Positions 4,601-24,142 of a DNA stretch of 38,096 nt are shown in pieces; within the stretch, counting starts at the first letter, position 1; every line of letters starts with the position of its first letter. Under the pieces are notes generated by a model. It saw only the letters and a program-made list of their open reading frames with translations, searched no databases and was not told the origin of the DNA. The stretch covers positions 1 through 38,096 of the forward strand of contig JAFGQG010000166.1 of NCBI GenBank assembly GCA_016935765.1, given 5' to 3'. The DNA is from a bacterium. GTDB lineage: Bacteria > UBP14 > UBA6098 > JAFGQG01. The translations under genes and the position numbers were made by a program.

Positions 4601-7429
4601 ATGAACAAATTGACCAAGTTTCTACTGCAAATATTCACAAATAACCAAGAAGCTCATTTAGATAAAGGTTGGGTTATAGCTAATCATATATTGGTATCCT
4701 TTCATGTTGCCTTTATTTCCTCCGTGTTGTCGATATCGTCTTCTATTGAATGCAGAAGTGAAGTGCTGCAGTTCATGTTCACAAGCTATGAAACCTTGAT
4801 ATCACTTGCGTTTTTATATATTACTTTTCACACAGGTATCGCCATTCACGAAATGGGACATTACCTGAAAGCCGTGAGATTAAGCGCGCTTAACGAGACT
4901 TTACTGCCGGAAGCTCAGGCTAAAATGGAGCAGGGGACTTTTAAAAAGCTAGTGTGGTATATCGGGATGTTTCTTAAGATACCTTATGGCGCATTTGAAG
5001 GCGTAACAAAGACGGGTTTGGATTATCATCCGGACGCTCCTTACAATTTAGCTGTATCCGCTGCTGGACCACGGGCCAGCAGGAATCTCGCAATCTTAGC
5101 ATTGCCAGTTGCTATAATACTGCTGATCATTGGATTAGTGGTAGGTTTTGCGATGCCTGTTTATATTGGGAGGCTTTTTCTTGGGATCGGGCTTGTAAGC
5201 TTGCTCGATTTTCATCTAGCTGATCCCGGTAAATACAAGGAATTCAAAGCCCGTGAAAAAGCTGCTGTTGATGCTGCTAAAACTGCTTGTGAAATTGTTG
5301 CTAAAAAAAAGCAAACATGGTCAGGAACAGTTAAAAATGTCAAAGAGATAATGACGTATGCAAGGATCCAGAAAGAAAAAATGCCTGATGGTTCACAGAA
5401 GTGGGTTCCTTGGCAGTTTAGAAATTGTGGTATGGGAGGAAGGCATACGGAGAAGGAATTCCCGGAAAGCAATATCAATCTCCAGGAGAGCATGTTCATA
5501 CCGTTAAGTGTGGAAAGTTATGAAGACGCGCAGGAAATGACTGTGAATTTACAAACCAGGTTGAAGGAAATCATTGAAAACGCGGAAGGCTGTACCGTTA
5601 AAGGAATTGGCACCGAAGGGGGTATTGCGGCGTACATCAAGAAGGAGAAAGGTGACATTTTACCAGCGCAGAGGCTTTGGAGAATGCAAAAACAGGCGAT
5701 ACTCGATTGCGGGTATGTTCCCGGCAAGGATGTAGCCATGGCTCTTGACCCCGCAGCAACCGAGTTGGAAAATGCATACAGGGAAGAAAAAGCACTTTCC
5801 GGAAGTGAAACAGTAGGTATGTATCTCGCCTGGCGGGACAAAGATAAAACCGTATTAAGCCGCGATGAACTCCTCCAGATTTATAAAAATGCTATCGAGG
5901 AAGAGGACTTGCCGATAATATCTATCGAAGACGGTTTTGCTGAAGACGATGACGAAGGCTGGAGAATCTTGATGAGGGAACTCGGAGAAAAGATACACGT
6001 CGTAGGGGATGACAATATCACTACCAAGGATTCCTCTATCGAGGAAAAAGCGGAAAAGGGATTGATAAACGCAGCCTTGATAAAGCTCAATCAGATCGGC
6101 TCAGTAACAGAAGGCATTTTGGCTATGCTCACTGCGATGGGCAAGGGGATTCACACGATTGTTTCTCACCGTTCCAAATCACCTATTGAGGATTTCGAAG
6201 CTCAGGTAGCGTTAGCCGCCAATTCCCTTGGCTTGAAAGCAGGTGGTGGCTCAAACTCTGAAAGGCTGTTTAAATATGAAGCGGTTGTCAAAGTCATCGG
6301 CGAGACCGTTAAGAACGACTTTCGTGCAAAAGAAAAAGCTGAAATTACTTCCGGGCAAATCGATGAAGCAACTAATGAATTCATGAATAAACTTACAATC
6401 ACGGGCATTGTTGCCAGGGAGGCTTCGACAAACGCCGGGATTCCAACAGTGGGTGTGGATATCGAAGTCGGGATCCCCGGCAATGAAAAATACAAAAAAA
6501 TGCTGACCTTCGAGGGCGCTACCCCGCTTGGTACTTCGGCTGGAACCGACGAAGCAATACACCTTATCGACAGTATTATCCCTGCAGATTCACCATTAGC
6601 CCAAAAATTTCCGGAGTTTTTCAAGCTCCAAAATGATGACCACACATACCGCTTCAAGAAGGATGTCACGACCAGAAAGATCAATGGAAAAAATGACGCT
6701 GAACTTACTAGAGCATGGCATCGGGCGAAAAGGTATAACGGCAAAGGCTGCCTTAATGCCGTAGATAACGTTAAAGAGACCATTGCGCGCAAGTTCCTTG
6801 GGAAAAAAATCACTGAGCTTGGCGATTTGGTGGAACTGGATAACACCTTGTTATTAATGGAGAGGGATCTCGCTATAGAACGCGGTACGCTCCAGACCGA
6901 TTCTGATACCAGTGAACAGATCAATGTGATGCAAAGGAAAATGAACCTGGGCATGAATGCCATATTATCCGTTTCATTGGCTATGGCAAGATTGAAGGGA
7001 GCCCTTGAGGGCAAACAACTCTGTGACATTGTCAGGGACCAGATGGCTTCAACAATGGCAAAAACCATTGCGGCTAACGGCGGATTAACTCTCATCGAAA
7101 CCTTGAAAGAGAAAATGCTTGAATTCAGAAAGAAAACATTGAAATATGACAGGCTTGCAGCATCGGAATTCAAAAAACCATTAGTGGATCCGGGATTTGA
7201 AGCTGAGGTCACCGCAGATGAAGAGAAGTCGATAACTGAAGAGGTAAACCAGATTATAAAAAGCATAGACACCGCTGTTGCTTGTGATGATAGGGAATTA
7301 TGGAAGATACTGATGGATGAGTTTGATTTTGAGGACCTTATTATGGGACTCCAGATCGTCAACGATAGAATCGGGAATGTTCCGCTTTACGAATTGCTTA
7401 GAAAGCAGTTATCTGTTTATAAGAATTGA
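4601..7429 (+). CDS. M50-like membrane protease domain fused to a circularly permuted enolase
   Basis: A 942-residue two-part protein. Residues 1-215 hold four hydrophobic segments (about 28-46, 66-82, 162-184, 187-205), a zinc-protease motif HEMGH (83-87), and SAAGPRASRNL (153-163), which resembles the AGPxxN motif of site-2 proteases. D203 or D208 could be the third zinc ligand. After a helical linker the enolase TIM barrel runs about 268-560: H282, E296, E339, metal ligands D383, E443 and D470, then K495, H523 and K546. The spacings E443-D470-K495-H523-K546 (27, 25, 28, 23) equal those in the normal enolase downstream. The enolase capping domain follows the barrel (about 598-815): ITGIVARE, the S646 loop, RYNGKGCLNAVDNV and NLGMNAIL align with the N-terminus of ordinary enolase. 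A tail (about 820-942) is unassigned. Phosphopyruvate hydratase activity is plausible but inferred. The SD before ATG 4601 is weak; the VWA gene ends 42 bases upstream. Confidence 0.88.
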   Translation: MNKLTKFLLQIFTNNQEAHLDKGWVIANHILVSFHVAFISSVLSISSSIECRSEVLQFMFTSYETLISLAFLYITFHTGIAIHEMGHYLKAVRLSALNETLLPEAQAKMEQGTFKKLVWYIGMFLKIPYGAFEGVTKTGLDYHPDAPYNLAVSAAGPRASRNLAILALPVAIILLIIGLVVGFAMPVYIGRLFLGIGLVSLLDFHLADPGKYKEFKAREKAAVDAAKTACEIVAKKKQTWSGTVKNVKEIMTYARIQKEKMPDGSQKWVPWQFRNCGMGGRHTEKEFPESNINLQESMFIPLSVESYEDAQEMTVNLQTRLKEIIENAEGCTVKGIGTEGGIAAYIKKEKGDILPAQRLWRMQKQAILDCGYVPGKDVAMALDPAATELENAYREEKALSGSETVGMYLAWRDKDKTVLSRDELLQIYKNAIEEEDLPIISIEDGFAEDDDEGWRILMRELGEKIHVVGDDNITTKDSSIEEKAEKGLINAALIKLNQIGSVTEGILAMLTAMGKGIHTIVSHRSKSPIEDFEAQVALAANSLGLKAGGGSNSERLFKYEAVVKVIGETVKNDFRAKEKAEITSGQIDEATNEFMNKLTITGIVAREASTNAGIPTVGVDIEVGIPGNEKYKKMLTFEGATPLGTSAGTDEAIHLIDSIIPADSPLAQKFPEFFKLQNDDHTYRFKKDVTTRKINGKNDAELTRAWHRAKRYNGKGCLNAVDNVKETIARKFLGKKITELGDLVELDNTLLLMERDLAIERGTLQTDSDTSEQINVMQRKMNLGMNAILSVSLAMARLKGALEGKQLCDIVRDQMASTMAKTIAANGGLTLIETLKEKMLEFRKKTLKYDRLAASEFKKPLVDPGFEAEVTADEEKSITEEVNQIIKSIDTAVACDDRELWKILMDEFDFEDLIMGLQIVNDRIGNVPLYELLRKQLSVYKN

Positions 7430-7642: not shown

Positions 7643-8941
7643 ATGAGTATTATAACTGGATGTTGGGCGCGAGAGGTACTGGATTCAAGGGGGATACCAA
7701 CTGTAGAGGTTGAGATAGAACTGAATTCGGGAATAATAGGAAGAGCAATTGTTCCTTCCGGGTCTTCCAAGGGAACCCACGAAGTCCTGGAGTTAAGGGA
7801 CGGAGATGAAAGTCGGTACAATGGAAAAGGTGTGTTGAAAGCGGTTGAGAATGTGAACAGTGTAATCGCACCGGAAATCCTTGAACTGGATGCCCGTGAT
7901 CAAGCTGGTTTAGACCAGATATTGATTGAGCTTGACGGCACCAAGGATAAATCAAAGTTAGGAGCTAACGCGATCCTTGGGGTGTCAGCGGCTACAGTCA
8001 GAGCCGCTTCGATATTCCTGGGCTTGCCTTTATACCAATACATCGGTGGCATTGGAGCAAAAGTGATGCCTATACCGCACGTAAATGTAATCAATGGCGG
8101 AGCTCACGCTCCAAACAGGCTTGATCTGCAGGAGTTTACATTGGTGCCTGCAGGCGCTAAATCCTTCAGGGAAGCCATCAGGATGTCCTCGGAGATATTC
8201 CATGCTTTGAAAAAATATCTAATCAGCAAGGGTCATATAACTTCTGTTGGTGACGAAGGAGGCTTCGCCCCCAACATCGCTTCAACAGAAGAGGCATTCC
8301 AAGCATTGATAACCGGTATTGAACTTGCTAGATATATTCCGGGTGACGATGTTTATGTCGGTCTGGACGCCGCCATAAGCGACCTTCATGTCGATGGAAT
8401 CTACAATCTCCCCGGTGAAAACAAGAAGTTCGACACGGACTCCATTATCGAATTCTACTCGGACCTTCTGCACAAGTATCCGATAATATCCATCGAAGAC
8501 CCGCTTGCAGAAGACGATTGGAATGGCTGGGTCAAGATAAACAAAGAACTGGGCGATAAGGTACAAATAGTCGGTGATGACATATTTGTAACTGATATTG
8601 TCCGGATACAGAAGGGCATAACCCTCGGTGTTTCCAACGCAGCGCTGATAAAGCTGAACCAGATCGGAACGGTCAGTGAAACTCTCGATGCTATCGAACT
8701 GGCTCAAAGAGCAGCCTGGGGCACAGTCATCTCGCATAGAAGCGGAGAAACCGAGGACGATTTCATTGCCGACCTTGCAGTCAGCACTAACACCGGGCAG
8801 ATAAAAACCGGCTCCGTCCAGAGATCGGAGAGAATCGTAAAATACAACCGCTTATTCAGAATAGAAGAACAATTAGAAGGAATATCGGTTTTCCCGAAGG
8901 CGAAGGATGTATTTCCGCATCTGAAGTTTAAAAATACATGA
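7643..8941 (+). CDS. eno: enolase (phosphopyruvate hydratase)
   Basis: A 432-residue enolase of normal length and normal domain order that interconverts 2-phosphoglycerate and phosphoenolpyruvate in glycolysis and gluconeogenesis. The capping domain is 1-140 and the barrel 141-432. Visible active-site residues are H155, E164, E205 (GDEGGF), metal ligands D242, E285 and D312, then K337, H365 (SHRSGETED) and K388. The mobile substrate loop reads SGSSKG rather than the near-universal SGASTG: the serine matching yeast Ser39 is S42, but the following Thr is replaced by Lys43. The start has a good SD and matches the usual enolase N-terminus. Its ATGA end overlaps the ftsB-like gene by four bases, an eno-ftsB linkage also seen in other bacteria. 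It is the likely housekeeping copy beside the permuted paralogue upstream. Confidence 0.96.
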
Positions 8942-9300
8942 ACAAGAAAGACGACTTAAAATACCTGCGCGTTACCCGAGACAATAAAGAAAAACTGAAA
9001 CAGAACATCAGGAGAATATTATATATTGGAATATGTCTGATAATCCTATACCTGCTCCTACTGGGAGAAAACGGATTGATAGCGGTCACTAAATACCACA
9101 AGCTGAAAAAAGAGCTTCAGGGAGAGCTTGAAGCGAAAAGAGCTGAAGAGGATTCTCTCAGAATCGAAATAGAAAAACTGCAAAGCGATTCGACTTATAT
9201 AGAAAAGATCGCGCGCGAAGATTACGGTCTGATAAGGGATAACGAGAAAATACTGCATTTTAAAGATAGCAATGAAAGAGAGCCTGGGCAAAAAGATTAA
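8938..9300 (+). CDS. FtsB/DivIC-type septum formation initiator
   Basis: A 120-residue bitopic protein with a basic N-terminus, one membrane helix (about 25-43) and a coiled coil (about 50-85, rich in K, E and L heptads). A conserved C-terminal segment follows: [19 protein letters not shown], which matches the FtsB/DivIC family (typical form IE..AR..LG....GE.v). In that family it forms a complex with FtsL and FtsQ/DivIB at the division septum and helps activate septal cell-wall synthesis. The start codon overlaps the eno stop (ATGA), so the two are translationally coupled. The end overlaps the DUF502 gene by 29 bases. FtsB and DivIC cannot be told apart from sequence alone. Confidence 0.85.
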
Positions 9301-12323: not shown

Positions 12324-13106
12324 TTAAAAAGTTTTGATATAAGATATGTTTTCGGCAGGAACCCAACCGTGTCTTCCATCCTCAAGTAGGATTTTTACCC
12401 AGTCCGCTCTTGATTCATCCACTGCGACCCTGGTACCTTCGTGGATAGTGAATAGCAATTCGGAATCTGAGCCTGGTGCGCTGGTTACATCCAGCTTAGA
12501 TACCATAACCACCGCCGCTGAATTTTGCCAGATGTCATTGGACTTCAACACAAAAACAGCTATCACCAGAAATTCAATTATGCAGAAAATCAATAGCAAT
12601 CTAAGGAAAGTCCTTCTTAATGCCCTTCGGTTCCCTAGTATTACTATTATAAGGACGATTGTGATCAATATCGATAGTATAAAAATAAACATATATAGTT
12701 CTTTGAAGTTAAAGAACAGAAGGAATTTTCTATAAAACTTGAGCAGGAAATGCTTATCATAAATAGAATCAATCTTATCGAAAGTCATAAGTTTAGCATA
12801 TTCCAGGTTATTTTTAACGGCTTCATCCCTTGGGGCAAGGAGAAGGGCTCTATTATAGTATAGTATCGCATTGCCAATTTGATTCGCTTTGAAGTAAGCG
12901 TTGCCCAGATTGTAGAATAACGCTTCGTTCACTGCCCCGCTCTGAATTGCTTCCTGGTAATATTCGATAGCTTCGAAGTAATCACCGTTTCTATAAGCTT
13001 CATTACCCTGGTTATAGAGCTCGGTGAACGTGCCAGAGTACGCATATCCGCAGATAAACAGAATTCCAACCGCAAACAATGTAGCTACTAGCCTTTCGCG
13101 CTTCAT
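12324..13106 (-). CDS. batE: BatE-like protein (TPR, membrane and SH3 domains)
   Basis: A 260-residue protein with an N-terminal signal/anchor (about 7-24) and at least two tetratricopeptide repeats (about 27-95; YNQGNEAYRNGDYFEAIEYY, then FYNLGNAYFKANQIGNAILY). Two membrane helices follow (about 139-157 and 167-187), and the C-terminus is a bacterial SH3 domain (about 195-256, with SAPGSDSELLFTIHEGTRV and WVKILLEDGRHGWVP). This combination is typical of BatE at the end of Bat (Bacteroides aerotolerance) operons. Its start overlaps the batD stop by four bases. It is probably a periplasmic scaffold working with BatA-D. Confidence 0.85.
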   Translation of the reverse strand: MKRERLVATLFAVGILFICGYAYSGTFTELYNQGNEAYRNGDYFEAIEYYQEAIQSGAVNEALFYNLGNAYFKANQIGNAILYYNRALLLAPRDEAVKNNLEYAKLMTFDKIDSIYDKHFLLKFYRKFLLFFNFKELYMFIFILSILITIVLIIVILGNRRALRRTFLRLLLIFCIIEFLVIAVFVLKSNDIWQNSAAVVMVSKLDVTSAPGSDSELLFTIHEGTRVAVDESRADWVKILLEDGRHGWVPAENISYIKTF

Positions 13107-14935
13107 CGTAATTTCCTGTCCAATTGTTTCAATATCCCGGATGCTTCTTTAATAAGATCATTGAACTCGAATTCAATCTGTCCGGGGGCATATCTTGCTA
13201 AATTGCAGGTGTCGATCAGCTTATCGGTTCTCAAAATCAAATCTTCAGCCACACCTTTTTCGACCAATTGAGGCACGATGTCTCTGAATATCAATCCTGC
13301 GGGGGGAAGGTTCAGTCTATCCGCAATGTAACCTGTTACAGAGCTCGTAACCGCGGATAATGCTTCTCCGGGATTATCCTTGTATCTTTTACCGGCTTTT
13401 TTCAACTTCTGTTTGGCTTCACGCAGGGCTTTGATATTTCTCGCGTAAACCTCATCCTCAATAATTCTCACTTTCCTTTGCTTATAAATAACCGCGATCA
13501 ATATAGCTAGAAGCTCGATGGGCAGCCAGAAAAACCTCTTCCACTGGTTCTCATTTGAAAAGTCAAATGTATTCATCTGCTGCATATCCGGTTTTATATA
13601 TCCGATATCCTTGCCAACATTTATAACTTCACCCTTAGATACAACTTTCACTCCGGGTTCCGTTCCGCCCTCCCCCGGAGAAACTTCGATTTTTAGGGAA
13701 TCGGTCTTCAATGAGCGGTAGGCTTCTTTGACCGGGTCGAAATACGAAAATTCGATGGGAGGAATAACGTAACTACCTGCAACTCTTGGCACTACAACAT
13801 ATTCGAACGTCTTTTTGCCGGAAATTTTATTGTTATCCTTAGATTGTGATTCGTTCACCTGGGTTTCGTATTTCTCAAAATCCGCGGGAAGGTTGATCTC
13901 AGGCTCACCAATAGCGTAGGTATTTCCGGTGCCGGCGATCTCGATTTTTATCGTGAGCGCTTCATTCGCTGCTATCTGGTCCTTGTCTTTGTATGCTCGA
14001 ATAGTGAAATTCCCAACAGCTCCGTTAAAAGAAGCCGGTTTCCCCTGAGTTGGAAGGGGCATAACATCTATAGTCACTGGTTTACCTGTAAGGTCAATTA
14101 TTTCTTTTCTGCCAAAGAATCCAAAAAAATCGCGGGAATCAACCTGTATCCCAGCTTTCAATTCCATAGGTTCGATCGTTTTTTTGCCTGGAGCTAGAGG
14201 AAAAAGCGCTACCTTCTGGAGTAGGGCTGCGTTGTATGCTTTGCCATTTATCACCTTCCTGGTATAATCCAGTCTCTTCGCGCTGAAGATGTCCTCCGTC
14301 CAGAAGCCCTCAAAAGACGGGCTCTTAGATGGATGAAGCTCCAGGACCGCTAACCTCGTAAATAGAGTCTGATCGAGTGTTATCTGTTCCCCAACGTACG
14401 CTTTTCTCTTATCAGGATAGGTTGAAAGAAATATGTTCTCCTTTACATCTTGAGGATCCAGGTTTACATCACCGGAACTCTGCCTGGGGGAGGCAGTCCG
14501 ACCGCCCCCACCTGTAACTGAACCTTTTACAACCTCAACATTTATTGGCGAAGTAGTATAGGTTTTCCCGCCATGTTTTAACTCTATAGCTCCAATTACA
14601 AGGGTTCCCTCTTTTTGCGGAGCTAGTGTGTACTCGTAGGTCTTTACACTTGACGAAACGGATTTCCCGCCCATCCCGAAACTGAAACTGTGCGATTGAG
14701 AAGTACTAGAGCTTAATATCGCAAAGTCCTCAAGCTCCGGAAGTTCTGGTTTGTTCACTCCCTTTAGATTACTACTCTCTACCTTTACCGACAATGCCAA
14801 TTCATCATCTATCCCAATCTTGTTCCTGTTCACTGACGCAGTGATGTTTATATCTTCAGCAAATACATTTCCCAACAAGACTAAAAGAAGGGCAACCAAT
14901 GCTGTCAACACTAAATTTCTTGATTTATATATCAT
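13103..14935 (-). CDS. batD: BatD, large periplasmic protein of the aerotolerance operon
   Basis: About 610 residues. A signal peptide is followed by repeated beta-sandwich regions (the family pattern is visible in DDELALSVKVESSNLKGV and VGEQITLDQTLFTRL). A Gly/Ser-rich stretch occurs near 140-155, one membrane helix lies near 475-492, and a cytoplasmic helical domain ends the protein (about 500-614). ATG 14935 is preferred because GGAAC lies eight bases upstream; an ATG at 14947 adds four residues but has no SD. BatD is a known partner of BatA/BatB in Bacteroidetes and spirochaetes, with unsettled molecular function. It is separated from batC by 271 to 283 bases containing a duplicated hairpin repeat, the largest gap inside the operon. 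Confidence 0.9.
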   Translation of the reverse strand: MIYKSRNLVLTALVALLLVLLGNVFAEDINITASVNRNKIGIDDELALSVKVESSNLKGVNKPELPELEDFAILSSSTSQSHSFSFGMGGKSVSSSVKTYEYTLAPQKEGTLVIGAIELKHGGKTYTTSPINVEVVKGSVTGGGGRTASPRQSSGDVNLDPQDVKENIFLSTYPDKRKAYVGEQITLDQTLFTRLAVLELHPSKSPSFEGFWTEDIFSAKRLDYTRKVINGKAYNAALLQKVALFPLAPGKKTIEPMELKAGIQVDSRDFFGFFGRKEIIDLTGKPVTIDVMPLPTQGKPASFNGAVGNFTIRAYKDKDQIAANEALTIKIEIAGTGNTYAIGEPEINLPADFEKYETQVNESQSKDNNKISGKKTFEYVVVPRVAGSYVIPPIEFSYFDPVKEAYRSLKTDSLKIEVSPGEGGTEPGVKVVSKGEVINVGKDIGYIKPDMQQMNTFDFSNENQWKRFFWLPIELLAILIAVIYKQRKVRIIEDEVYARNIKALREAKQKLKKAGKRYKDNPGEALSAVTSSVTGYIADRLNLPPAGLIFRDIVPQLVEKGVAEDLILRTDKLIDTCNLARYAPGQIEFEFNDLIKEASGILKQLDRKLR

Positions 14936-15060
14936 TCTAAGTTCCATTTTTTATTTTCAATACAGTTCTTCAGTTCGAATTTTAATATTTACAGCCTCGG
15001 GCTTCACCAATTTCTAATTTTTCAATTTTTATTTTCGCAATTTCTATTTTCTATTTTCTA

Positions 15061-15104
15061 TTTTCTGATAATTTACAAGCGCAGGCTGAAGACCTGCGGC
15101 TACA
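15061..15104. repeat. 44-base direct repeat with hairpin, copy 1
   Basis: It runs from TTTTCTGATAATTTACAAGC to GCGGCTACA and is matched by copy 2 at 15145-15188 with one visible mismatch (G/A at the loop). Inside is an inverted repeat, CGCAGG-CTGAAGA-CCTGCG, able to form a six-base-pair stem. The GC-rich core in AT-rich surroundings resembles dispersed intergenic repeats found in other uncultured bacterial genomes. Confidence 0.8.
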
Positions 15105-15144
15105 AAGACTTCCCGATTTTCTGTTTTCAAATTTCAATCTTCAA

Positions 15145-15188
15145 TTTTCTGATAATTTACAAGCGCAGGCTAAAGACCTGCGGCTACA
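15145..15188. repeat. 44-base direct repeat with hairpin, copy 2
   Basis: The second copy of the element at 15061-15104, 40 bases beyond its end. The loop has CTAAAGA instead of CTGAAGA; the stem CGCAGG/CCTGCG is preserved. It lies 30 bases downstream of the batC stop on the transcribed strand, so the hairpin could stabilise or attenuate the batC-batD message. Confidence 0.8.
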
Positions 15189-15218
15189 GCGTTTTTATAA
15201 TTTCCTTTTTCTACTTCT

Positions 15219-15998
15219 TTACCAATCCTTCTCATGGTAGGATTTTCCACCTGCTCGTTTCTTCATTTTTTCTTCCTGCATCTCTTTGTCTTCGTCTTTG
15301 AGAGCGTTCAGGATTCTTTCAGCCTCCTCCTTGGAAATCTCCTTTTCCTGTGGCTGGGGCTGTCCTTGTTCCTCCTTGTCCTCTTCATCTTGATCTTCAT
15401 CACCTTGCTGTTGCTGAGCTTGTTGCTCTTCCTGCTCCTGTTCCTGGTCTTGCTGTTGTTGTTGCTGTTCCTGATTCTGGTTCTGCTGTTCTTCCTGATC
15501 CTGTTGCTGTTGTTGCTGCTGCTGAGGCTGCTCCTGTTTTTCAGATAATTCCTTGAGAAGCGCTCTCGCTAGCTCCAGATTGTATTTCGCGTCCTGGTCA
15601 TCCGGATTCAACTCAAGTGCTTTTTTATAAAGCTGTATGCTCTGAAGAAGACTGTCTTGCTTAAAGAAGCAATTGCCGATGTTGTAGTATAGTTTCGATT
15701 CCACTAAAGGATCCTTGGCATACTGCAATCCCTTCACGAATTCCTCTGTAGCTTTGTCGTATCTTTTTTGCTTGTAGAGTGAAATTCCTATATTATGATT
15801 CAGTTCCGGTGAATCAGGAAGATCGAGTTGGGCATCGCGAAAATCGGACAGCGCTTCCTCGTATTTATCCATCTTGTAAAGCTCAGCTCCCTCTTCATTC
15901 TTTTTAACGGGAGATGCCGCAGACACTAATGATATTGAACACAATACCAGAATAAAACCAATTGAAATTTCTTTTATCTTTAAGTAAAACATCATCAA
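15219..15998 (-). CDS. batC: BatC-like TPR protein with a glutamine-rich tail
   Basis: A 259-residue protein with a signal peptide (about 8-27) and three to four TPR units (about 34-150, e.g. NEEGAELYKMDKYEEALSDF and LYYNIGNCFFKQDSLLQSIQ). A long low-complexity region follows (about 155-220), dominated by Gln with Glu and Asp, then a charged helix with EAERILNAL (about 228-236) that recurs in BatC proteins. Low-complexity E/Q tracts are usual in this family, but this one is long. The ATG region overlaps the stop of the YihY gene by four bases. A TPR protein in this position is thought to assemble the Bat complex on the periplasmic face. Confidence 0.85.
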   Translation of the reverse strand: MMMFYLKIKEISIGFILVLCSISLVSAASPVKKNEEGAELYKMDKYEEALSDFRDAQLDLPDSPELNHNIGISLYKQKRYDKATEEFVKGLQYAKDPLVESKLYYNIGNCFFKQDSLLQSIQLYKKALELNPDDQDAKYNLELARALLKELSEKQEQPQQQQQQQQDQEEQQNQNQEQQQQQQDQEQEQEEQQAQQQQGDEDQDEEDKEEQGQPQPQEKEISKEEAERILNALKDEDKEMQEEKMKKRAGGKSYHEKDW

Positions 15999-16855
15999 AC
16001 CTCTGCTTTTAGCAGCTTTAGATCAGCGCTTTTCCACTTCATTCTCGTTGCTATTATTTCAGCTCCGAACAATAATATAATGGACGAATAGTAAATCCAC
16101 AACATAATTGCGATTAAAGCGCCGAGTGTTCCATAAATTTTACTGTATTGCACCACGTTCGTAACGAACCACCCGAAAATCCACTTCGCTACTCCCCAGA
16201 GAACGCCGGCAAAGATACCTCCAAGAATACTGTATTTAAATGGTATATGTTTGTATGGCAATACATTATATATAAAAACAAACACGATAATAACCAACAC
16301 AAGGGGTACTATGAACATGAAAGCGTTCCACAGGAACTGGTTTTGAAAAATCTTAATGTTAAATATCTCCAGCTCCAGGGACCTTAGGACCTTGCTTGCT
16401 GAGGATATGAATATCGAAACGAGCGCGCAAACCGAAATCAGTATCATGACCAGGTAGGTTATACCTCTTCTGTGCCAGAATCCCCGAATCTTTTCAATAC
16501 CCCAGACGTGATTTATGGCTTTCTCGATAACATCGAACACAAATCCTGAAAACCATAGAAGCAGTATTATTCCAACTCCTCCAAAGAATTCTTTCGCTCC
16601 TATTACCGAATTTATTGTGGTCCTGAAATCTAATATCAGAGCTCTTGGAAATAATCCATCTATGTTATCCAATGCCAGGGAGATCGCCTCTTCTGATGAA
16701 CCGATGATAAATCCCAGGACGGAAATGGACACGAGAAGGAATGGTATCAGTGAGAGAATAGAGTAGTATGAAATCGCTCCAGCCAGTATCCAGCAATCAT
16801 CCTTGAAAAAATTCTGGAACAGGGCTTTTAAATATTTTATTATGGTTTTTATCAT
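15995..16855 (-). CDS. YihY/BrkB family inner-membrane protein
   Basis: A 286-residue polytopic protein with about six membrane segments. Family motifs are visible: LAGAISYYSILSLIPFLLV (about 25-43), INHVWGIEKIRGFWHRRG (about 113-130), a central YNVLPYKHIPFKYSILGGIFAGVLW region, and WIYYSSIILLFGAEI near the C-terminus. Many members were once called ribonuclease BN; that was a misassignment and the true function is uncertain (envelope transport has been suggested). It lies between batB (15 bases upstream) and batC (four-base overlap), so it is clearly part of the operon, which is not the usual Bat composition I know. Confidence 0.88.
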   Translation of the reverse strand: MIKTIIKYLKALFQNFFKDDCWILAGAISYYSILSLIPFLLVSISVLGFIIGSSEEAISLALDNIDGLFPRALILDFRTTINSVIGAKEFFGGVGIILLLWFSGFVFDVIEKAINHVWGIEKIRGFWHRRGITYLVMILISVCALVSIFISSASKVLRSLELEIFNIKIFQNQFLWNAFMFIVPLVLVIIVFVFIYNVLPYKHIPFKYSILGGIFAGVLWGVAKWIFGWFVTNVVQYSKIYGTLGALIAIMLWIYYSSIILLFGAEIIATRMKWKSADLKLLKAEV

Positions 16856-16870
16856 CGCACTTATAGTGAA

Positions 16871-17899
16871 TTAAGGTATTATGGGGCTTTTAGTTCTCTT
16901 TCTTTCAGGTATGAAGGTTTCAGCCAGCAACAGCAGGATTGCTACCGCAAGGAAATACTGAAATCTATCCTCGAACTGCGTGAATTTTTTCTGCTCGAAT
17001 TCCTTCTTTTCCATTTTAGAAATAGCATCATAGATATCGTCGAGTTCAGCTTGTCCGGGAGTTGCCCTGTAATATTTCCCTTCGGTCATGAGAGCTATCT
17101 TCTCTAAAGTAAGCTCGTCTAATCTCGTGGTTACAACTTCGCCTTTCCTGTTTTTCTTGAAGCCTGTTTGATTGCCGTATTCATTATAGATGGGGATTGG
17201 CACTCCTTTTGTCGAGCCAATGCCTACCGTGAAGATCTTGATACCTTCCTTGCCCATCTCTTCGGCAATCTTCTGTGGCTCAGTTTCATGGTCCTCGCCA
17301 TCAGTGATCAACAGAAGGACTTTGTGTTTACGTTCTTTCTCAACGAAAGCTTTGTGGGCTACCTCCAGAGCTCGTCCGATCGAGGTCCCCTGCTCGGGGA
17401 TAATTTTGGTGTCCACTGCATCGAGAAGCATGAGAGCCGCGCCGTAATCTGTGGTTAACGGGCAAAGCAGGAACGCGTCACCCGCAAAAGTTACAATACC
17501 GATACGGTCACCTTCGAGCTTGTTAATTATCGAAGCTACTTCGTACTTGGCTTTGGACATCCTGTTAGGTTTTACATCTTCAGCGAGCATCGATTCGGAG
17601 ACATCCAGCGCGATCACCAGGTCGATCCCTTCCCTCTTGACCTTTTCCAGCTTGGTTCCGATTTGAGGTCTCGCAAGTGCCAGGATCAGGAACATAAATG
17701 CCAGGACGATCAAAGCCATTTTCCAGTGTCTCTGCTTGGGACTCACTCCCGGCATTAACCTGGAAAGTAACTCAAAATTTCCGAATAACTGTAAAATTCT
17801 CCTTCGCTGCTTTTCCAGTAATACAAATAACAGTATCAACAGCGGTATTCCGATCAGGAGATAAAATATTTGTACATTTGCGAATCTTACCATTTTCAA
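16871..17899 (-). CDS. batB: BatB, membrane-anchored VWA protein
   Basis: A 342-residue protein with two N-terminal helices (about 11-28 and 61-77), a VWA domain and one C-terminal helix (about 314-330). MIDAS residues D99, S101 and S103 (ALDVSESM) are intact, and the later ITDGEDHE motif supplies the third metal-site region. ALARPQIGTKLEKVKREG before the domain is characteristic of BatA/BatB. The protein ends in a short basic tail. It lies 12 bases after batA. Within the family, BatA and BatB form complexes in the periplasm or on the membrane and are thought to be driven by the MoxR ATPase. Confidence 0.92.
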   Translation of the reverse strand: MKMVRFANVQIFYLLIGIPLLILLFVLLEKQRRRILQLFGNFELLSRLMPGVSPKQRHWKMALIVLAFMFLILALARPQIGTKLEKVKREGIDLVIALDVSESMLAEDVKPNRMSKAKYEVASIINKLEGDRIGIVTFAGDAFLLCPLTTDYGAALMLLDAVDTKIIPEQGTSIGRALEVAHKAFVEKERKHKVLLLITDGEDHETEPQKIAEEMGKEGIKIFTVGIGSTKGVPIPIYNEYGNQTGFKKNRKGEVVTTRLDELTLEKIALMTEGKYYRATPGQAELDDIYDAISKMEKKEFEQKKFTQFEDRFQYFLAVAILLLLAETFIPERKRTKSPIIP

Positions 17900-17911
17900 C
17901 CTTTAATTATT

Positions 17912-18928
17912 TTAAGGTATTTTCTTAAATACTATATATCTAAGCCAGATATCCAGGAGCAGAAACAAACCGGCAATTACCAGGAAAATAGTGAACAGCT
18001 CTTTGTATCTCATGAAATTCTTCACTTCGATTTTGGTTTTTTCCATGCTGTCAATTTCCTTATAGATGCCCCTCAACTTTTCAGTATCCGTTGCCCGGAA
18101 ATATTTACCGCCAGTTATACGTGCAACTTCTCTAAGGGTTTCTTCATCGATCTCCACGGGCATTCTCTGGTACTGCTTACCGAAGAAGGGATGATCTACA
18201 GGGTAAAGCGCATAGCCTCTTTTCCCCGCTCCGATGGAATATATCTTGATATCGAAAGTATTTGCCAGTTTTGCCGCCGTTACGGGATCGATCTCTCCAC
18301 GGTTATTTCTGCCGTCAGTCAGGAGTATTATGACCTTGCTTTTAGCCTTGGAATCCTTTAACCTGTTAACCGCATTAGCGATAGCCATACCGATTGCCGT
18401 ACCATCTTCAATCATTCCAATTTCGGTCTGGTCGATAAAATTCAGGATGATCCCATAATCCAGAGTCAGTGGGCACTGAGTGAAGCTCTTCCCCGCGAAT
18501 ACGACCAGCCCTATCCTGTCATTCTCACGTCCCTGCACAAATTCCTTTGCTACCATCTTCGCCGCGCCCAATCTGTTTTGGGGTTTAAAATCCTCAGCCC
18601 TCATACTGGTAGAGGTATCCAATATCAGTATAATATCCACACCCTCAGTATATACCTTCTGCTCCTCCCTACCAGCTTGTGGTCTCGCCATTGCAATCGA
18701 CAGGAATACGATAACGAACGCTCGAACAAACGGGAGAATCTTTCTCCATTGGGTTCGCCAGCTCGGTTTAATATCCCCAAGGAGGTCCAGCGATGAGAAT
18801 TTAACACGCCCTCCGTAATCCTTCCTGAGTCCCCAATACACTATGTAGGGTGCCAATAACATTAATAATAGAAATTCAGGGTTCACGAAACGAAGATTGC
18901 TCAACCCTAATGTACTAAGCAGATTCAT
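17912..18928 (-). CDS. batA: BatA, membrane-anchored VWA protein
   Basis: A 338-residue paralogue of the next gene in the operon: N-terminal helices (about 17-33 and 64-80), ARPQAGREEQ before the domain, and MIDAS residues D104, S106 and S108 (LDTSTSM). The second loop is LTDGRNNRGEIDP, a sequence typical of BatA and distinct from the BatB DGEDHE version, which is why the names are assigned this way round. A C-terminal helix lies near 313-329. The start overlaps the stop of the upstream BatD-like gene by 14 bases. Confidence 0.92.
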   Translation of the reverse strand: MNLLSTLGLSNLRFVNPEFLLLMLLAPYIVYWGLRKDYGGRVKFSSLDLLGDIKPSWRTQWRKILPFVRAFVIVFLSIAMARPQAGREEQKVYTEGVDIILILDTSTSMRAEDFKPQNRLGAAKMVAKEFVQGRENDRIGLVVFAGKSFTQCPLTLDYGIILNFIDQTEIGMIEDGTAIGMAIANAVNRLKDSKAKSKVIILLTDGRNNRGEIDPVTAAKLANTFDIKIYSIGAGKRGYALYPVDHPFFGKQYQRMPVEIDEETLREVARITGGKYFRATDTEKLRGIYKEIDSMEKTKIEVKNFMRYKELFTIFLVIAGLFLLLDIWLRYIVFKKIP

Positions 18929-19928
18929 CTTCTACATCCTCTGTAGTTGAAGTTTCAAGAGACTCATCTTCCTGGGAAAATTCATCTTCAGTTTCTACGT
19001 TTTCTACCGTTATTTCTTCCACCAACCTGGTTTCCTCTATTATATCATAAACTCCCTGCCAGGTTTTTTCGTGATATTCCTTTGGCGGAATATACTTTGA
19101 GAATTTTACCAGATCACATAATTCAAGGGACTTTCTAATCTTCTCTTTAACGTTCTCATCTATTCCAACTTCGGGACAAAGCTGCAATATCTCAAAGGTA
19201 GTAAGCTCTAAAGCGTCGAATCCATACCTTCCTTCGAAGTATTCCCTGAGAATAAAAGACAACGATGTGTAAAATATTTTGACCATCAGGTCATCATCGA
19301 GCGCTTCATAATCGAGGCTTTTTAATCTCTGCATTGCGAGGTCATAGGGTGGTATCTTTGGTTTTTCAGGTTCGAACAATCCCAGACCTTTAGCGCGCTT
19401 TTTCCGCCAGTAGATTATTAAAGCTATTAAAAAAGCAATGAATAGGATCGCGCCGCCCAGGATGTAAAGCCACTTATAACTCCTTGGAAGCATGATCGGC
19501 TCTTTAACATCCTTGATCTCCGGAGGTGCGCCAGGTTCAAGGATGCTTTCAACATTGATCTTTATCGGTTGTGTTTTCAGTATGCCTCCCTGTCCCGACG
19601 AATCCCTGTACGCTATACCAGTCGGAGGTATTTCCCATTCACCTGTATCATAAGTCGATATGATGTATGTAAAACTTTGTGAAATCCTGCCGTCTTTTTC
19701 AACTTCATCCCCGATTGAAAAATCCTGGATCTCAAACTGACCAAGGTTTGCGCCTAATCCTGGGGTTAATATTTCCAATCCCTTATCATATTCGATATGG
19801 ATCTTGTATGTTATTCTGTCACCGATAGTTATATTAGTACGATCTACTTCCGAGCTTACCTCAGCCTGGCTATAGACCAGTGCCGGCAACGCGAAGAAAA
19901 GAAATAGTATGGCTATCATCCTGTTCAC
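18915..19928 (-). CDS. short BatD-like membrane protein 1
   Basis: About 337 residues. A signal peptide (MIAILFLFFALPALVYS), a beta-sandwich domain (about 20-140 of the mature frame; VDRTNITIGDRITYKIHIEY), one membrane helix followed by a basic stretch (YWRKKRAK), a cytoplasmic helical domain (YTSLSFILREYFEGRYGFDA through LCDLVKFSKYIPP) and an acidic tail. The helical domain resembles the C-terminus of full-length BatD. The frame is open to 20024, but that start would lie deep inside the preceding gene. GTG 19928 is chosen because AGAGG lies seven bases upstream; ATG 19919 is possible. The preceding gene stops at 19942, so the spacing suits coupling. Confidence 0.8.
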   Translation of the reverse strand: MNRMIAILFLFFALPALVYSQAEVSSEVDRTNITIGDRITYKIHIEYDKGLEILTPGLGANLGQFEIQDFSIGDEVEKDGRISQSFTYIISTYDTGEWEIPPTGIAYRDSSGQGGILKTQPIKINVESILEPGAPPEIKDVKEPIMLPRSYKWLYILGGAILFIAFLIALIIYWRKKRAKGLGLFEPEKPKIPPYDLAMQRLKSLDYEALDDDLMVKIFYTSLSFILREYFEGRYGFDALELTTFEILQLCPEVGIDENVKEKIRKSLELCDLVKFSKYIPPKEYHEKTWQGVYDIIEETRLVEEITVENVETEDEFSQEDESLETSTTEDVEDESA

Positions 19929-19941
19929 AGTTAGACCTCTA

Positions 19942-20943
19942 TCATTGGTTTCCTGATATTTCCTGTTCCAATTTATCCGGATCAACACCCAGGCTTTCGG
20001 GGAAGAACCTGACACCTTCGGCATCCATCATTTTCCTGATTAGTTCCTGCTCCAGGATCTGCATCTTCTGCATCTGCAATTTCTTCTGGATCTCCTGAAC
20101 AGCTTCATCCATGGTTTTATCAGCATATTCATCCTTATGCTGTTCGTAGTAAAACTTTATATCTTCGTCCTTGATCTCGAGTTTTCCACCAATCTCATCC
20201 TGGTAGATCTTGCGTATCAGTATCTGCCTTGTTACCTCGTGAAGATCGTCGATCACTTCCTGGTTCTTATCATAGCCTCGTCGAAGAGCCATATCGTACA
20301 TCAATTCCTGACCCACATATTGATTTAAGAAATTGTATTTACCGGTTGGTCCCTTGAATTCTTCGAGTAAATAATCCGGCAGCCTGTTCAATGCCGCGTT
20401 CAATTCCCTCATTGTAATGTCCCGCGAGCCGATCTTAGCGACAACCTTGCCCCCCTTCGGAGTAGCGCTTTTCTCCCCCAGTACCACCGACTCCTCAAGT
20501 GTTTGCTGTGCTTGAGCCGATCTTCCCAGATAATCGAGACAAGAAACGATCTTTTTATTAGCCTCCATAAGTAGTGGACTGTCAGGATAAAGGGTTTTCA
20601 ATTTCAAGTATTGCTTTAAAGCGCCCTTAAAATCCCTCAAATCAGCATAGTAAATGTTCCCCGTCGTGTATATTATGTTAGCCGCTTTTTGGGCATCAGG
20701 AGCATAAACCCTCAATATTTCTTCAAATTCAAATATGGCTTCATTATATAATTCGTTGTTCAATAATGAATTGGCATATTCTATCGCATGATCCAGGTCG
20801 GAAATGTTCCCCTTGTTAGCATAACCACCACTTAGCAATATGATGACAATAACTATCCCCAGAGCCAAAAGGACACCGTTCAGTGCAACCGAAATAAGTG
20901 GGATCAGTTTGCTTGTATGCGTTTTATTTAATGTATCGTTCAT
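19942..20943 (-). CDS. membrane-anchored TPR and SurA-like chaperone without a parvulin domain
   Basis: A 333-residue protein with an N-terminal membrane anchor (about 15-40), a TPR region (about 50-150, e.g. NELYNEAIFEFEEIL, IIYTTGNIYYADLRDFKGAL) and a SurA/PpiC-type chaperone region (about 165-310: KVVAKIGSRDITMRELNAAL, then QYVGQELMYDMALRRGYDKN). In ordinary SurA/PpiC the parvulin prolyl isomerase would follow IKFYYEQHKDEYA; here the chain passes directly into the closing helix (TMDEAVQEIQKKLQMQKMQ), so no isomerase domain is present. It probably holds unfolded envelope proteins on the periplasmic side. Its place in the Bat operon between DUF58 and the BatD-like gene supports an envelope-folding role. 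Confidence 0.72.
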   Translation of the reverse strand: MNDTLNKTHTSKLIPLISVALNGVLLALGIVIVIILLSGGYANKGNISDLDHAIEYANSLLNNELYNEAIFEFEEILRVYAPDAQKAANIIYTTGNIYYADLRDFKGALKQYLKLKTLYPDSPLLMEANKKIVSCLDYLGRSAQAQQTLEESVVLGEKSATPKGGKVVAKIGSRDITMRELNAALNRLPDYLLEEFKGPTGKYNFLNQYVGQELMYDMALRRGYDKNQEVIDDLHEVTRQILIRKIYQDEIGGKLEIKDEDIKFYYEQHKDEYADKTMDEAVQEIQKKLQMQKMQILEQELIRKMMDAEGVRFFPESLGVDPDKLEQEISGNQ

Positions 20944-20980
20944 TTTGACCTGCCATTTTTATTTATTGACATGTTTGGCA

Positions 20981-21973
20981 TCAGTATCTCTTTGCCCTTT
21001 GCTTGAAAAAGGCAACAAGTGGATCAATGTAAGGTTTATCGGTATAAACATCAATAGTATCCAGCCCGATTGATTTAAATATTTTCTCCCTCTTCAATTT
21101 ATTCTCGGCAATGTTCTTGGTGAATTTCTTACGTAACTGGTAGTCAGATGAATCCAACAGCATCCTTTCACCTGTTTCAGCATCTTCGAGTTCGATAAAT
21201 CCAACTTTGGGAAATGATTCCTCTCTAGGATCGGTGATTATAATTGGCACGAGGTCATGTCTCTGGGATGCAATAGCCAGTGGTTTTTTATAGTCCTCCG
21301 CAATGAAGTCCGATACCAGGAATACGATCCCTTTCCGGGTCAAAACCCTGTTCATATAATCCAATGCTTCAGCTATATTGGTTTCCCTGTCCTTTGGTTG
21401 ATTATAGAGAAGCTCTCTGAGCAGCCTGAGTACATGTGTTTTACCCTTCTTTGGCGGGACGAATTTTTCGACAATGTCAGTGAACATAATTAATCCGACC
21501 TTATCGTTATTCTGGATAGCTGAAAACGCTAAAAGCGCGCATATCTCAAGAGCTATCTCTCTCTTCATCTGGCTCACTGTCCCAAATTCACCTGAGGAAG
21601 AAATGTCAACAAGCAGCATAACGGTCAGTTCCCTCTCCTCTTCGAATATCTTGATGTATGGTTTTCCCATTCGGGCGGTCACGTTCCAGTCGATAGCTCT
21701 GATATCATCACCAACCTGGTACTCCCGGACTTCCGCGAACTCCATACCCCTCCCCTTGAACACGCTGTGATATTCACCCGAGAAGACATCGTTCACCCAT
21801 CTTCGAGTCATTATATCCAGCTTTCTTATCCTTCGAAGTATATCCTTGGGTATGCCTACAAACCCATGTTCACGTGCCTCGCGAAGCTTCCTGCGACTCC
21901 TGAATAAAAAGAAAACCGTCAGCGCTAAAGCTATGGTTAATACTATTAATGATATAAGTAATATAATATTCAT
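20981..21973 (-). CDS. DUF58 protein of the MoxR/Bat system
   Basis: A 330-residue protein with one N-terminal membrane helix (about 3-23) and the DUF58 core: GRGMEFAEVREYQVGDDIRA (about 75-94), IDWNVTARMGKPYIKIF (about 95-111) and then a degenerate VWA fold starting LLVDISSSGEFG (about 120-131). The DxSxS-like motif is present (D123, S125, S127). DUF58 proteins nearly always sit directly after a MoxR gene, as here (55-base gap). They are thought to be the membrane-side partner of the ATPase. The start has only a weak SD. Confidence 0.92.
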   Translation of the reverse strand: MNIILLISLIVLTIALALTVFFLFRSRRKLREAREHGFVGIPKDILRRIRKLDIMTRRWVNDVFSGEYHSVFKGRGMEFAEVREYQVGDDIRAIDWNVTARMGKPYIKIFEEERELTVMLLVDISSSGEFGTVSQMKREIALEICALLAFSAIQNNDKVGLIMFTDIVEKFVPPKKGKTHVLRLLRELLYNQPKDRETNIAEALDYMNRVLTRKGIVFLVSDFIAEDYKKPLAIASQRHDLVPIIITDPREESFPKVGFIELEDAETGERMLLDSSDYQLRKKFTKNIAENKLKREKIFKSIGLDTIDVYTDKPYIDPLVAFFKQRAKRY

Positions 21974-22028
21974 TTTACTTCAAATATATAAGTTAAAACA
22001 TCACCTGTGTTTCATTCTTTACTTGTCT

Positions 22029-23018
22029 TTACGGTACTTCTATCTTACCGAGTATTCGTCTGATAATATCTTCCGAACTGACTTCTTCTGCTTCAGCTTC
22101 GTACGATACTATAACCCTATGTCTCAGAACATCCATCGCCATTGCCCTGACATCCTCCGGAGTAACGTAACCCCGTCCCATAAGGAACGCATGAGCGCAG
22201 GAGGTGGTTTTCATATATAAAGACGCTCTTGGAGAAGCGCCGTAACTAACCAGGTCCTTTATTTCCTCCAAACCGTACTTTTCTGGGTACCTGGTCGCGA
22301 AGATTATATCAAGTATGTAATTCTCTATCTTCTCGTCCACATAGACCTCTCTTACGACTTTCCTGGCTTTCAATATCGCTTCGGGATCAATGCAAGGGGA
22401 CGCAACGGGAGGGTTGATCGGGGAATGCAATTCCATTATCTTCTTTTCTTCCTCCTTATTGGGATAACCGATGACTACCTTCAGCATAAAACGATCCACC
22501 TGAGCCTCAGGAAGCGGATAAGTTCCATGCTGCTCTATCGGGTTTTGAGTAGCAAGCACCATAAAAGGTTCATCCATCTTGAAAGTATTCTCACCAATTG
22601 TCACCTGCCGCTCCTGCATACATTCCAGTAGAGCCGATTGCACTTTGGCAGGCGCGCGGTTGATCTCGTCCGCTAATATCAGGTTTGAAAAAATAGGACC
22701 CTTCTTCGTTGTGAAACAAGCCTCCTGCTGGTTGTAAATAAGAGTTCCAACCAGATCCGCGGGAAGTAGATCCGGAGTAAATTGAATCCGCTGAAATTTA
22801 GTTTTAATAATTGTGGATAGCGTACTGATAGCTAACGTTTTTGCCAATCCAGGCACACCCTCCAGCAGTAAGTGCCCATCAGAAAGCAGCGCAATCAACA
22901 ATCTTTCCACCATGTTCTTCTGACCTACTATCACCTTCTCAATCTCATTGGTAATATCCTTTATGAATTGGCTTTCCTTTTTTATTTTCTCGTTCAGGGC
23001 TTGAATGTCCTCGTGCAT
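22029..23018 (-). CDS. MoxR-family AAA+ ATPase
   Basis: A 329-residue cytoplasmic ATPase. Walker A is GVPGLAKT (54-61), Walker B is LILADE (113-118) followed by INRAPAKVQSALLECMQE, the sensor-1 region is LATQNPIEQHGTYPLPEAQ, and an arginine-containing DRFML follows. The C-terminal lid has YGASPRASL, typical of MoxR. In known systems MoxR proteins act as chaperones that load or remodel VWA-domain partners; here BatA, BatB and DUF58 are encoded downstream. A perfect AGGAGG SD lies five bases before the ATG, the best ribosome site in the operon, so this protein may be made in excess. Confidence 0.96.
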   Translation of the reverse strand: MHEDIQALNEKIKKESQFIKDITNEIEKVIVGQKNMVERLLIALLSDGHLLLEGVPGLAKTLAISTLSTIIKTKFQRIQFTPDLLPADLVGTLIYNQQEACFTTKKGPIFSNLILADEINRAPAKVQSALLECMQERQVTIGENTFKMDEPFMVLATQNPIEQHGTYPLPEAQVDRFMLKVVIGYPNKEEEKKIMELHSPINPPVASPCIDPEAILKARKVVREVYVDEKIENYILDIIFATRYPEKYGLEEIKDLVSYGASPRASLYMKTTSCAHAFLMGRGYVTPEDVRAMAMDVLRHRVIVSYEAEAEEVSSEDIIRRILGKIEVP

Positions 23019-23066
23019 TTTTCCTCCTGTTTTATTTAACAGTAAATTTTATATTTGTCAATAATA

Positions 23067-24056
23067 TTAAGTTTCATTTTTTCTGTTCTCATCCGATTTG
23101 TTCATAAGGCTTTCAGTTAAGACCATCTCCAGATTCATGTATACATCATCCTTTTCAAGCTGTGTAGCTTCATGCCTTGCAAATCTGACCATGTCGCATA
23201 CTGTCAGTACTCTCTGAGTTCTGTCAAGCAGTTTATCATCCACGTTCAACTCTTCCAATTTGCCTATCAACTCTTTTGTCGGAATGCCCATTGCTTCGAT
23301 CCCCAAAGCTTCTCGAAGATAGCGCCTGGTTATCTGAGAAATTGACCCGAAATAGTCAGAAATATCACCCGCTTCCAAAAGCTTTTTAGTCCCTTTAAGC
23401 TCGGTCAAAAGTTCCTCCTCCATGGGTTTGGATTCTTCCACTTCGATGGACTTCCGTTTTTTGTTTCTGAAATATACCCAAATCAGTATTGCCGCACCTG
23501 CGGTAAAAGCTACAACAATTAACATGATCAAAGGCAATATAGATTTATCATTGGGTATAAGCGGTTCTGTAACTTTAATACCGATACGCGAGGTTTGAAG
23601 AGTCCTGGTTTTATCCAGCGGTATATGCTTATATTTCAGGTTAACAGGATTTATATAAGCCATTCCCATCGATATCGGATTATAATAGAACAGGTACTCC
23701 TTATACATTAAGGTCTTACCGTTCTTCACTTCGGATCTATTGCGTGATGCGCTGCTTATAAGGTCCAGGTGCGACACCTCAGGTGGTTCTACTTCCGAAA
23801 ACTCGTATATGTCAGGATTTCCGATTAACTCCACCTGCACGGTTAACAAGAGGGTATCGTTCTCAGGAAGGGAATCCTTATTAACGAAGGCTTTAATCGT
23901 AAGATCCTCCCAAACGGGAACTGAAGCAAGCATGGATGAATCTTCAGGAGTACTTAATCCCACCGCCTGGCTATCCGTTCCTTCATTTAGAGTATCCTGC
24001 GAAAATCCAAGTGAAAACATCAATAATAATATTGTAATAACCAATAATTTTTTCAT
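23067..24056 (-). CDS. short BatD-like membrane protein 2
   Basis: About 329 residues with a signal peptide (MKKLLVITILLLMFSLGFSQ), a beta-sandwich domain (about 45-160), one membrane helix (about 170-192), a basic stretch (FRNKKRKS) and a cytoplasmic helical domain (about 205-315; YFGSISQITRRYLREALGIE ... VCDMVRFARHEAT). The same cytoplasmic domain recurs in the 18915-19928 protein and at the end of BatD. ATG 24056 is chosen over an in-frame ATG at 24098 because it begins the signal peptide and has AGGTG eight bases upstream. It lies between htrA and moxR. Confidence 0.75.
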   Translation of the reverse strand: MKKLLVITILLLMFSLGFSQDTLNEGTDSQAVGLSTPEDSSMLASVPVWEDLTIKAFVNKDSLPENDTLLLTVQVELIGNPDIYEFSEVEPPEVSHLDLISSASRNRSEVKNGKTLMYKEYLFYYNPISMGMAYINPVNLKYKHIPLDKTRTLQTSRIGIKVTEPLIPNDKSILPLIMLIVVAFTAGAAILIWVYFRNKKRKSIEVEESKPMEEELLTELKGTKKLLEAGDISDYFGSISQITRRYLREALGIEAMGIPTKELIGKLEELNVDDKLLDRTQRVLTVCDMVRFARHEATQLEKDDVYMNLEMVLTESLMNKSDENRKNET

Positions 24057-24142
24057 ACTATTCACACCTTTTTTATAGATAATTATATATTGCTGCATAT
24101 CACAAAAACCTATGAATATTAAAGGCTATTAATTCCATTTTC

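Follow-up and report, generated by a model that had tools for sequence, protein, structure and literature searches.

A circularly permuted enolase joined to a site-2-protease-like membrane domain, a probable active enzyme encoded in a UBP14 bacterium

An enolase with reversed domain order

The open reading frame at positions 4601-7429 (+) of a 38,096-nucleotide stretch of bacterial DNA (GTDB lineage UBP14, UBA6098, JAFGQG01; assembly GCA_016935765.1, contig JAFGQG010000166.1; the whole stretch is hereafter the window) is, judged from its sequence, a circularly permuted enolase belonging to a large natural family. The frame runs for 942 codons without interruption, and the permuted enolase is joined C-terminally to a site-2-protease-like membrane domain, the combination probably being an active enzyme (probability roughly 0.6). 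The features of the gene, and of the ordinary enolase that follows it, are:

4601..7429 (+): whole gene, 942 amino acids, consisting of membrane domain, enolase barrel, enolase cap and helical tail (open reading frame and Pfam)
4601..5386 (+): site-2-protease-like (Pfam M50) membrane domain, residues 1-262
4847..4861 (+): HEMGH, the HExxH zinc-protease motif, residues 83-87 (conserved in relatives)
5222..5224 (+): D208 of ADPG, a possible third metal ligand (from conservation; D203 is equally kept)
5402..6310 (+): enolase TIM barrel, residues ~268-570, with H282, E296, E339, D383, E443, D470, K495, H523-R524-S525 and K546
6311..6391 (+): permutation junction, the barrel-to-cap linker, residues 571-597 (frame continuous; same order in independent relatives)
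6392..7045 (+): enolase capping domain with inserts, residues ~598-815 (PF03952, E 2.4e-12; profile-profile, E 5e-21)
6536..6538 (+): S646 in the mobile loop PLGTSAG (serine conserved in relatives)
7046..7426 (+): C-terminal helical tail, residues 816-942, past the part alignable with ordinary enolase (helices in the model)
7643..8941 (+): ordinary enolase, 432 amino acids, 213 bases 3' of the permuted gene (TIGR01060, 603.7 bits, cut-off 300)

A first-pass annotation of the sequence had placed the barrel before the cap within the 942-residue product, the opposite order to that of the intact enolase downstream, with both domains carried on a membrane protein; this was borne out, the domain order by separate models for the two enolase domains. 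Pfam placed Enolase_C at residues 271-568 (E 1.7e-47), behind the membrane domain (~1-262), followed by Enolase_N with its best stretch at 695-751, the latter scoring 47.6 bits against a cut-off of 35. Enolase_N matched the cap in three separate stretches, apparently because the cap carries inserts; 141 residues separate the mobile-loop motif from LGxNA in the permuted protein, versus 68 in the ordinary enolase next to it. In profile-profile comparison, the family region 593-815 matched the ordinary N-terminal domain with a probability of 99.4 over template columns 3-134 of 134, and the family barrel matched the ordinary barrel at E 2e-53, whereas the barrel/cap cross-comparisons reached probabilities of only 0.3 and 0.1. 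The permuted protein scored 198.8 bits against TIGR01060 and did not reach its equivalog cut-off of 300.

A database search for relatives of the window type scored 7997 candidates and kept 915 proteins at E<=1e-3, of which the best 120, including the window's own, were listed; counts for the short form refer to these 120 matches, and counts for the fused form to the 120 listed relatives of a dikinase-like module described below. The profiles used to determine domain order were built solely from ordinary enolases, that of the window plus 107 from the database. Barrel preceded cap in 224 of the 365 collected proteins, so that the architecture is present in other genomes, and cap preceded barrel in 108, namely the 107 ordinary enolases from which the profiles were built and one protein, P0035, with an extra cap at its front. 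The remainder matched the barrel profile only (9), the cap profile only (1) or neither (23). The reversed order was seen in independent assemblies, two dikinase-fused relatives lying on contigs of more than 4 Mb (up to 4.35 Mb), and a misassembly at the barrel-cap junction, which the first-pass annotation had named as a possible refutation, was therefore rejected.

Several relatives have more elaborate arrangements. P0035, whose record is marked partial, carries its extra cap ahead of the membrane domain; an Omnitrophota chain (L023:3-6863) contains two barrel-cap units; and in the phylum of genome G389 a permuted enolase (L142, G410:C13:51002-52672) lies within an open frame reported as 10,304 amino acids. 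A tandem duplication masking the ordinary order was considered and rejected, the barrel-cap unit staying reversed in both P0035 and L023.

Catalytic residues and predicted structure

Twelve barrel positions (H282, E296, E339, D383, E443, D470, D471, K495, H523, R524, S525 and K546) showed zero substitutions across 233 permuted proteins, comprising the 120 listed short-form proteins, 101 dikinase-fused proteins (with 0-4 gaps per position) and 12 stand-alone permuted enolases; the other 19 of the 120 listed matches from the fused search yielded no barrel segment and do not enter the barrel counts. The same letters were found in 107 or 108 of 108 ordinary enolases. The roles of these residues in catalysis and metal binding, and their match to yeast numbering, are assumed here, and S646 is presumed to be the counterpart of yeast enolase Ser39. 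The S646 position is serine in all 120 listed short-form proteins and in 101 of 103 fused proteins (two gaps), and among the stand-alone proteins the mobile-loop serine aligned in 7 of 12 (five gaps), with PAGTSTG following SHRS in all 12. The landmarks H282, E296, E339, D383, E443, D470, K495, H523, K546 and S646 were thus all present as first claimed, as was the identity of spacing from E443 through D470, K495 and H523 to K546, which is 27, 25, 28 and 23 in both the permuted and the neighbouring ordinary enolase. From H282 to E443 the spacings differ, being 14, 43, 44 and 60 in the permuted protein versus 9, 41, 37 and 43 in its neighbour. The earlier suggestion of a permuted enolase with plausible activity is supported by these residues, and the permuted protein is likely to be a working enolase.

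An AlphaFold2 prediction of the whole soluble part gave a single confident body (predicted template modelling score, pTM, 0.91), the barrel of which overlays solved enolases. The first-pass annotation had expected such a model to overlay on enolase with the cap docked; a single body and a matching barrel were found, the overlay covering the barrel. The cap is predicted, as likely, to close over the barrel, which would let the mobile-loop serine reach the metals as in ordinary enolase.

The membrane domain

The Pfam model for Peptidase M50 (PF02163) matched residues 74-250 of the window protein with 19.4 bits, below its cut-off of 27.2, and the same family is recorded in precomputed annotation for 5 of the 120 listed relatives. 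H83, E84 and H87 of the HExxH motif are conserved in all 120 listed short-form proteins and in 96 of 97 dikinase-fused proteins (one gap), and the motif lies within model helix 63-93, with a hydrophobic window at 64-84. D208 is aspartate in 120 of 120 listed short-form and 97 of 97 fused proteins and may be the third metal ligand of the protease-like domain, although D203 is equally conserved. A structural match to the Methanocaldococcus jannaschii site-2 protease (3b4r) was of suggestive strength, and a Foldseek search with the membrane-domain model gave no significant match. Overall the domain is site-2-protease-like in sequence and likely a protease, the support from structure being suggestive.

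Distribution and relation to the ordinary enolase

The membrane domain is patchy in its occurrence. Of 386 genomes sampled around that of the window, 5 have it, one of these being the divergent G203; elsewhere it was detected in 2 of 5 genomes in the phylum of G222, 1 of 2 in that of G203, 6 of 285 in that of G389 (Omnitrophota) and 19 of 147 in that of G390. A search for Enolase_C covered 31 distinct genomes that carry the permuted gene, G388 having its matches in the same places as G001 and being counted once with it. An ordinary enolase was also present in 19 of the 31, and only the permuted enolase was found in 11 (G687, G688, G689, G740, G741, G742, G743, G744, G746, G754 and the fragmented G387); G690 had no Enolase_C match, its permuted gene being cut by a contig end.

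Within the phylum of G390, the permuted gene holds the sole Enolase_C match in 10 of 19 genomes, and an ordinary enolase is present as well in eight (G390, G749, G751, G752, G753, G755, G757 and G812). In all eight the ordinary gene lies downstream on the same contig and strand, with the Enolase_C matches 1.4-1.6 kb apart, and in G390, G812, G751 and G755 the two frames are separated by 20-40 bases. The window pair has the same arrangement. The sole matches in ten genomes together with the tandem pairs in eight suggest that the permuted protein has replaced the ordinary housekeeping enzyme, and the latter may have been lost where its role could be taken over by the permuted protein, at any rate in these ten genomes, which are mutually related and of unstated completeness. 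In one of the ten, G743 (~2.5 Mb), the 1.76 Mb covered encodes phosphoglycerate mutase (PF10143, PF01676), class II aldolase (PF01116) and phosphotransferase system enzyme I with its phosphoenolpyruvate (PEP)-binding domain. Phosphoglycerate kinase and glyceraldehyde-3-phosphate dehydrogenase were not found in these 1.76 Mb by motif scans run without a positive control, ~0.7 Mb lying outside the scan, a result that counts neither for nor against a full glycolysis.

The genes adjoining the permuted enolase vary between lineages. In the window the ordinary enolase separates the permuted gene from DivIC; in G001, a genome of the same family, those two are immediate neighbours and the ordinary enolase is on another contig. 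In G743, and by similar open reading frames in G741 and G744, the next conserved downstream frame is an M48 protease gene, and a rhomboid gene lies upstream in G390 and, by similarity, in G812:

Window 8938..9300 (+): DivIC/FtsB-like gene (PF04977, E 4.1e-18)
L132:11615-13288: M48 protease gene directly 3' of the permuted enolase, G743
L024:7279-7944: rhomboid gene 5' of the permuted enolase

A barrel tree of 86 chosen rows (38 ordinary, 24 short, 16 fused and 8 stand-alone) put ordinary enolases, short and fused forms together, and stand-alone permuted enolases on separate sides, with approximate likelihood-ratio (SH-aLRT) supports of 99, 99 and 100 percent. Long branches meet in it, so the tree does not establish that the permutation arose only once. 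In the same tree, the ordinary enolase of G001 (L080) does not group with that of the window (7643-8941), which suggests either replacement or old paralogy.

Dikinase-linked relatives

In a second set of relatives, the permuted enolase continues into a pyruvate-phosphate-dikinase (PPDK)-like module, and in one genome the corresponding parts are encoded by adjacent genes:

L034:3962-10612 (-), L035:3560-9802 (-) and P0127-P0246: fusions of ~2000 residues, with an M50-like domain, permuted enolase and PPDK-like module
L040:1896-7110 (-): adjacent trio in G203, coding for a divergent PPDK-like protein, a membrane protein devoid of HExxH and a stand-alone permuted enolase

The chain runs on for ~1200 residues in both G222 and G387, with Pfam PPDK_N and PEP-utilizers matches in G222. 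Among the 120 listed module relatives, 101 have the enolase barrel in the same chain and others are free proteins of ~1160-1310 residues; the swivel and ATP-grasp motifs are present in 115 and 116 of the 120, respectively. The few named relatives include Acidobacteria, Aminicenantes, Krumholzibacteria, Gemmatimonadales, Deltaproteobacteria, Polyangiaceae and Planctomycetota. In both a fused (P0196) and a free (P0135) example, TIGR01828 matched over the ATP part and PEP-utilizers over the swivel part, and the PEP/pyruvate barrel PF02896, sought in these two at E<=0.05, was not found.

The G203 PPDK-like protein matched TIGR01828 (E 1e-27) over positions 19-508 of 865, with PPDK_N below cut-off; its sequence holds undetermined residues, and it was missed by whole-genome searches with P0135 or PF01326. 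The enolase residues in this genome are retained although the membrane protein has lost HExxH. The Omnitrophota chain L023 matched the dikinase-like module at E 2.2e-6, and a Pfam scan of it returned no PPDK domain. In G000, G001, G011 and G390 the matches were confined to PPDK-like frames of ordinary size and covered the ATP and swivel parts, leaving the first part of the module unmatched. A dikinase-like partner was also sought in the window's own genome (89.85% complete), where the only match was an 881-amino-acid frame of ordinary PPDK size, again over the ATP and swivel parts.

Possible function and alternative explanations

The most likely interpretation is an active enolase that is anchored at the membrane and coupled to an intramembrane protease. 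The permuted enolase would interconvert 2-phosphoglycerate (2PG) and PEP at the cytosolic face of the membrane, its soluble half being predicted to fold as one body, and the HExxH membrane domain would be a working intramembrane protease. Binding or turnover in the enolase half would likely be coupled to cleavage by the protease, the 2PG/PEP flux thus being read at the membrane. In the window's bacterium the permuted enzyme would work alongside the ordinary enolase of the neighbouring gene; in relatives that have no such gene it would serve as the housekeeping enolase. The lineages seen share the permuted enolase and, where the context is known, the membrane domain. As the enolase site persists in G203 despite the absence of HExxH, enolase catalysis, anchored at the membrane, is taken as the core function.

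A possible alternative, though an unlikely one, is a metabolite-gated site-2 protease, in which binding of 2PG or PEP to the enolase half would control cleavage, with catalysis incidental. The HExxH motif is as invariant as the enolase site, and the neighbouring M48 and rhomboid genes would suit a proteolytic role, but against it stand the full catalytic set, present without exception where aligned, the sole Enolase_C match in ten genomes, and the enolase residues kept in G203, where the membrane protein has lost HExxH. Somewhat less probable still is that the enolase half feeds PEP to a phosphohistidine machine, the dikinase-like module being the ancestral partner and the window protein a short form whose partner is free or lost. 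This would account for the 101 fused chains, the three neighbouring genes of G203, the module match inside the Omnitrophota polyprotein and the widely kept swivel and ATP-grasp motifs, but the fused module lacks the PEP/pyruvate barrel in the examples scanned, the Omnitrophota chain has no Pfam PPDK domain, and the four genomes with only ordinary-size frames leave the first part of the module unmatched.

That the gene is a degenerate or mis-assembled enolase paralogue without function is very improbable: the sole point in its favour is the ordinary enolase next door, and decay was rejected given the strict conservation over 233 proteins; the independent assemblies, with contigs of up to 4.35 Mb, also stand against this reading. 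A broader and decidedly tentative synthesis would be that of a membrane machine built around the permuted enolase, which has displaced the housekeeping enolase in one lineage and elsewhere serves as the carbon-binding barrel of a chimeric dikinase whose PEP/pyruvate barrel is gone, one chain thereby uniting 2PG/PEP chemistry, phosphohistidine transfer and intramembrane proteolysis, with PEP flux setting proteolysis.

Other features of the window

An antisense open reading frame of 386 amino acids (6202-7362, -) lies opposite the cap and tail, with similar antisense frames in relatives, and these may be by-products of codon structure. Farther along, 12324-25615 (-) holds Bat-like genes (VWA/BatA, BatD and TPR proteins), a BrkB-like gene and an HtrA-like trypsin-PDZ gene. 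Searches across the window for tRNA genes and Rfam families gave no match.

Comparison with known systems

Enolase ranks with the most conserved enzymes of central metabolism, and its chain is usually taken to have two domains in a fixed arrangement. A natural family of reversed order, with a protease-like membrane anchor and a likely capacity to stand in for the ordinary enzyme in some bacteria, would show that the domain order is dispensable. It would allow the dependence of folding and domain closure on connectivity to be tested directly, and likewise whether a glycolytic step is wired to intramembrane proteolysis. The architecture is easily overlooked because the genes are named 'hypothetical protein' or 'enolase' in databases. 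The first-pass annotation knew of no natural circular permutation of enolase, and in open-access full texts (subscription papers and preprints being outside the scope) neither a natural permuted enolase nor an enolase-site-2 protease fusion was found described; passages in PMC2575518, PMC4686048, PMC2876114 and PMC1570152 concern other proteins or make general remarks.

The module of the fused relatives shares the ATP-grasp and phosphohistidine swivel domains with pyruvate, phosphate dikinase (TIGR01828), but the chain has the permuted enolase barrel in place of a detected C-terminal barrel PF02896; this module occurs in relatives only, the window's protein having no fusion to it. With enolase itself (phosphopyruvate hydratase, TIGR01060; PF03952 and PF00113) the permuted protein shares both domains, the checked catalytic and metal residues, the E443-K546 spacing and the barrel fold, and it differs in its reversed order, cap inserts, helical tail, N-terminal membrane domain and NCBIfam score (198.8 against the cut-off of 300). 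Some M50 site-2 proteases carry C-terminal CBS domains. Compared with this family, including the M. jannaschii enzyme (3b4r), the window protein scores under the Pfam cut-off and bears an enolase where a CBS or PDZ domain would be.
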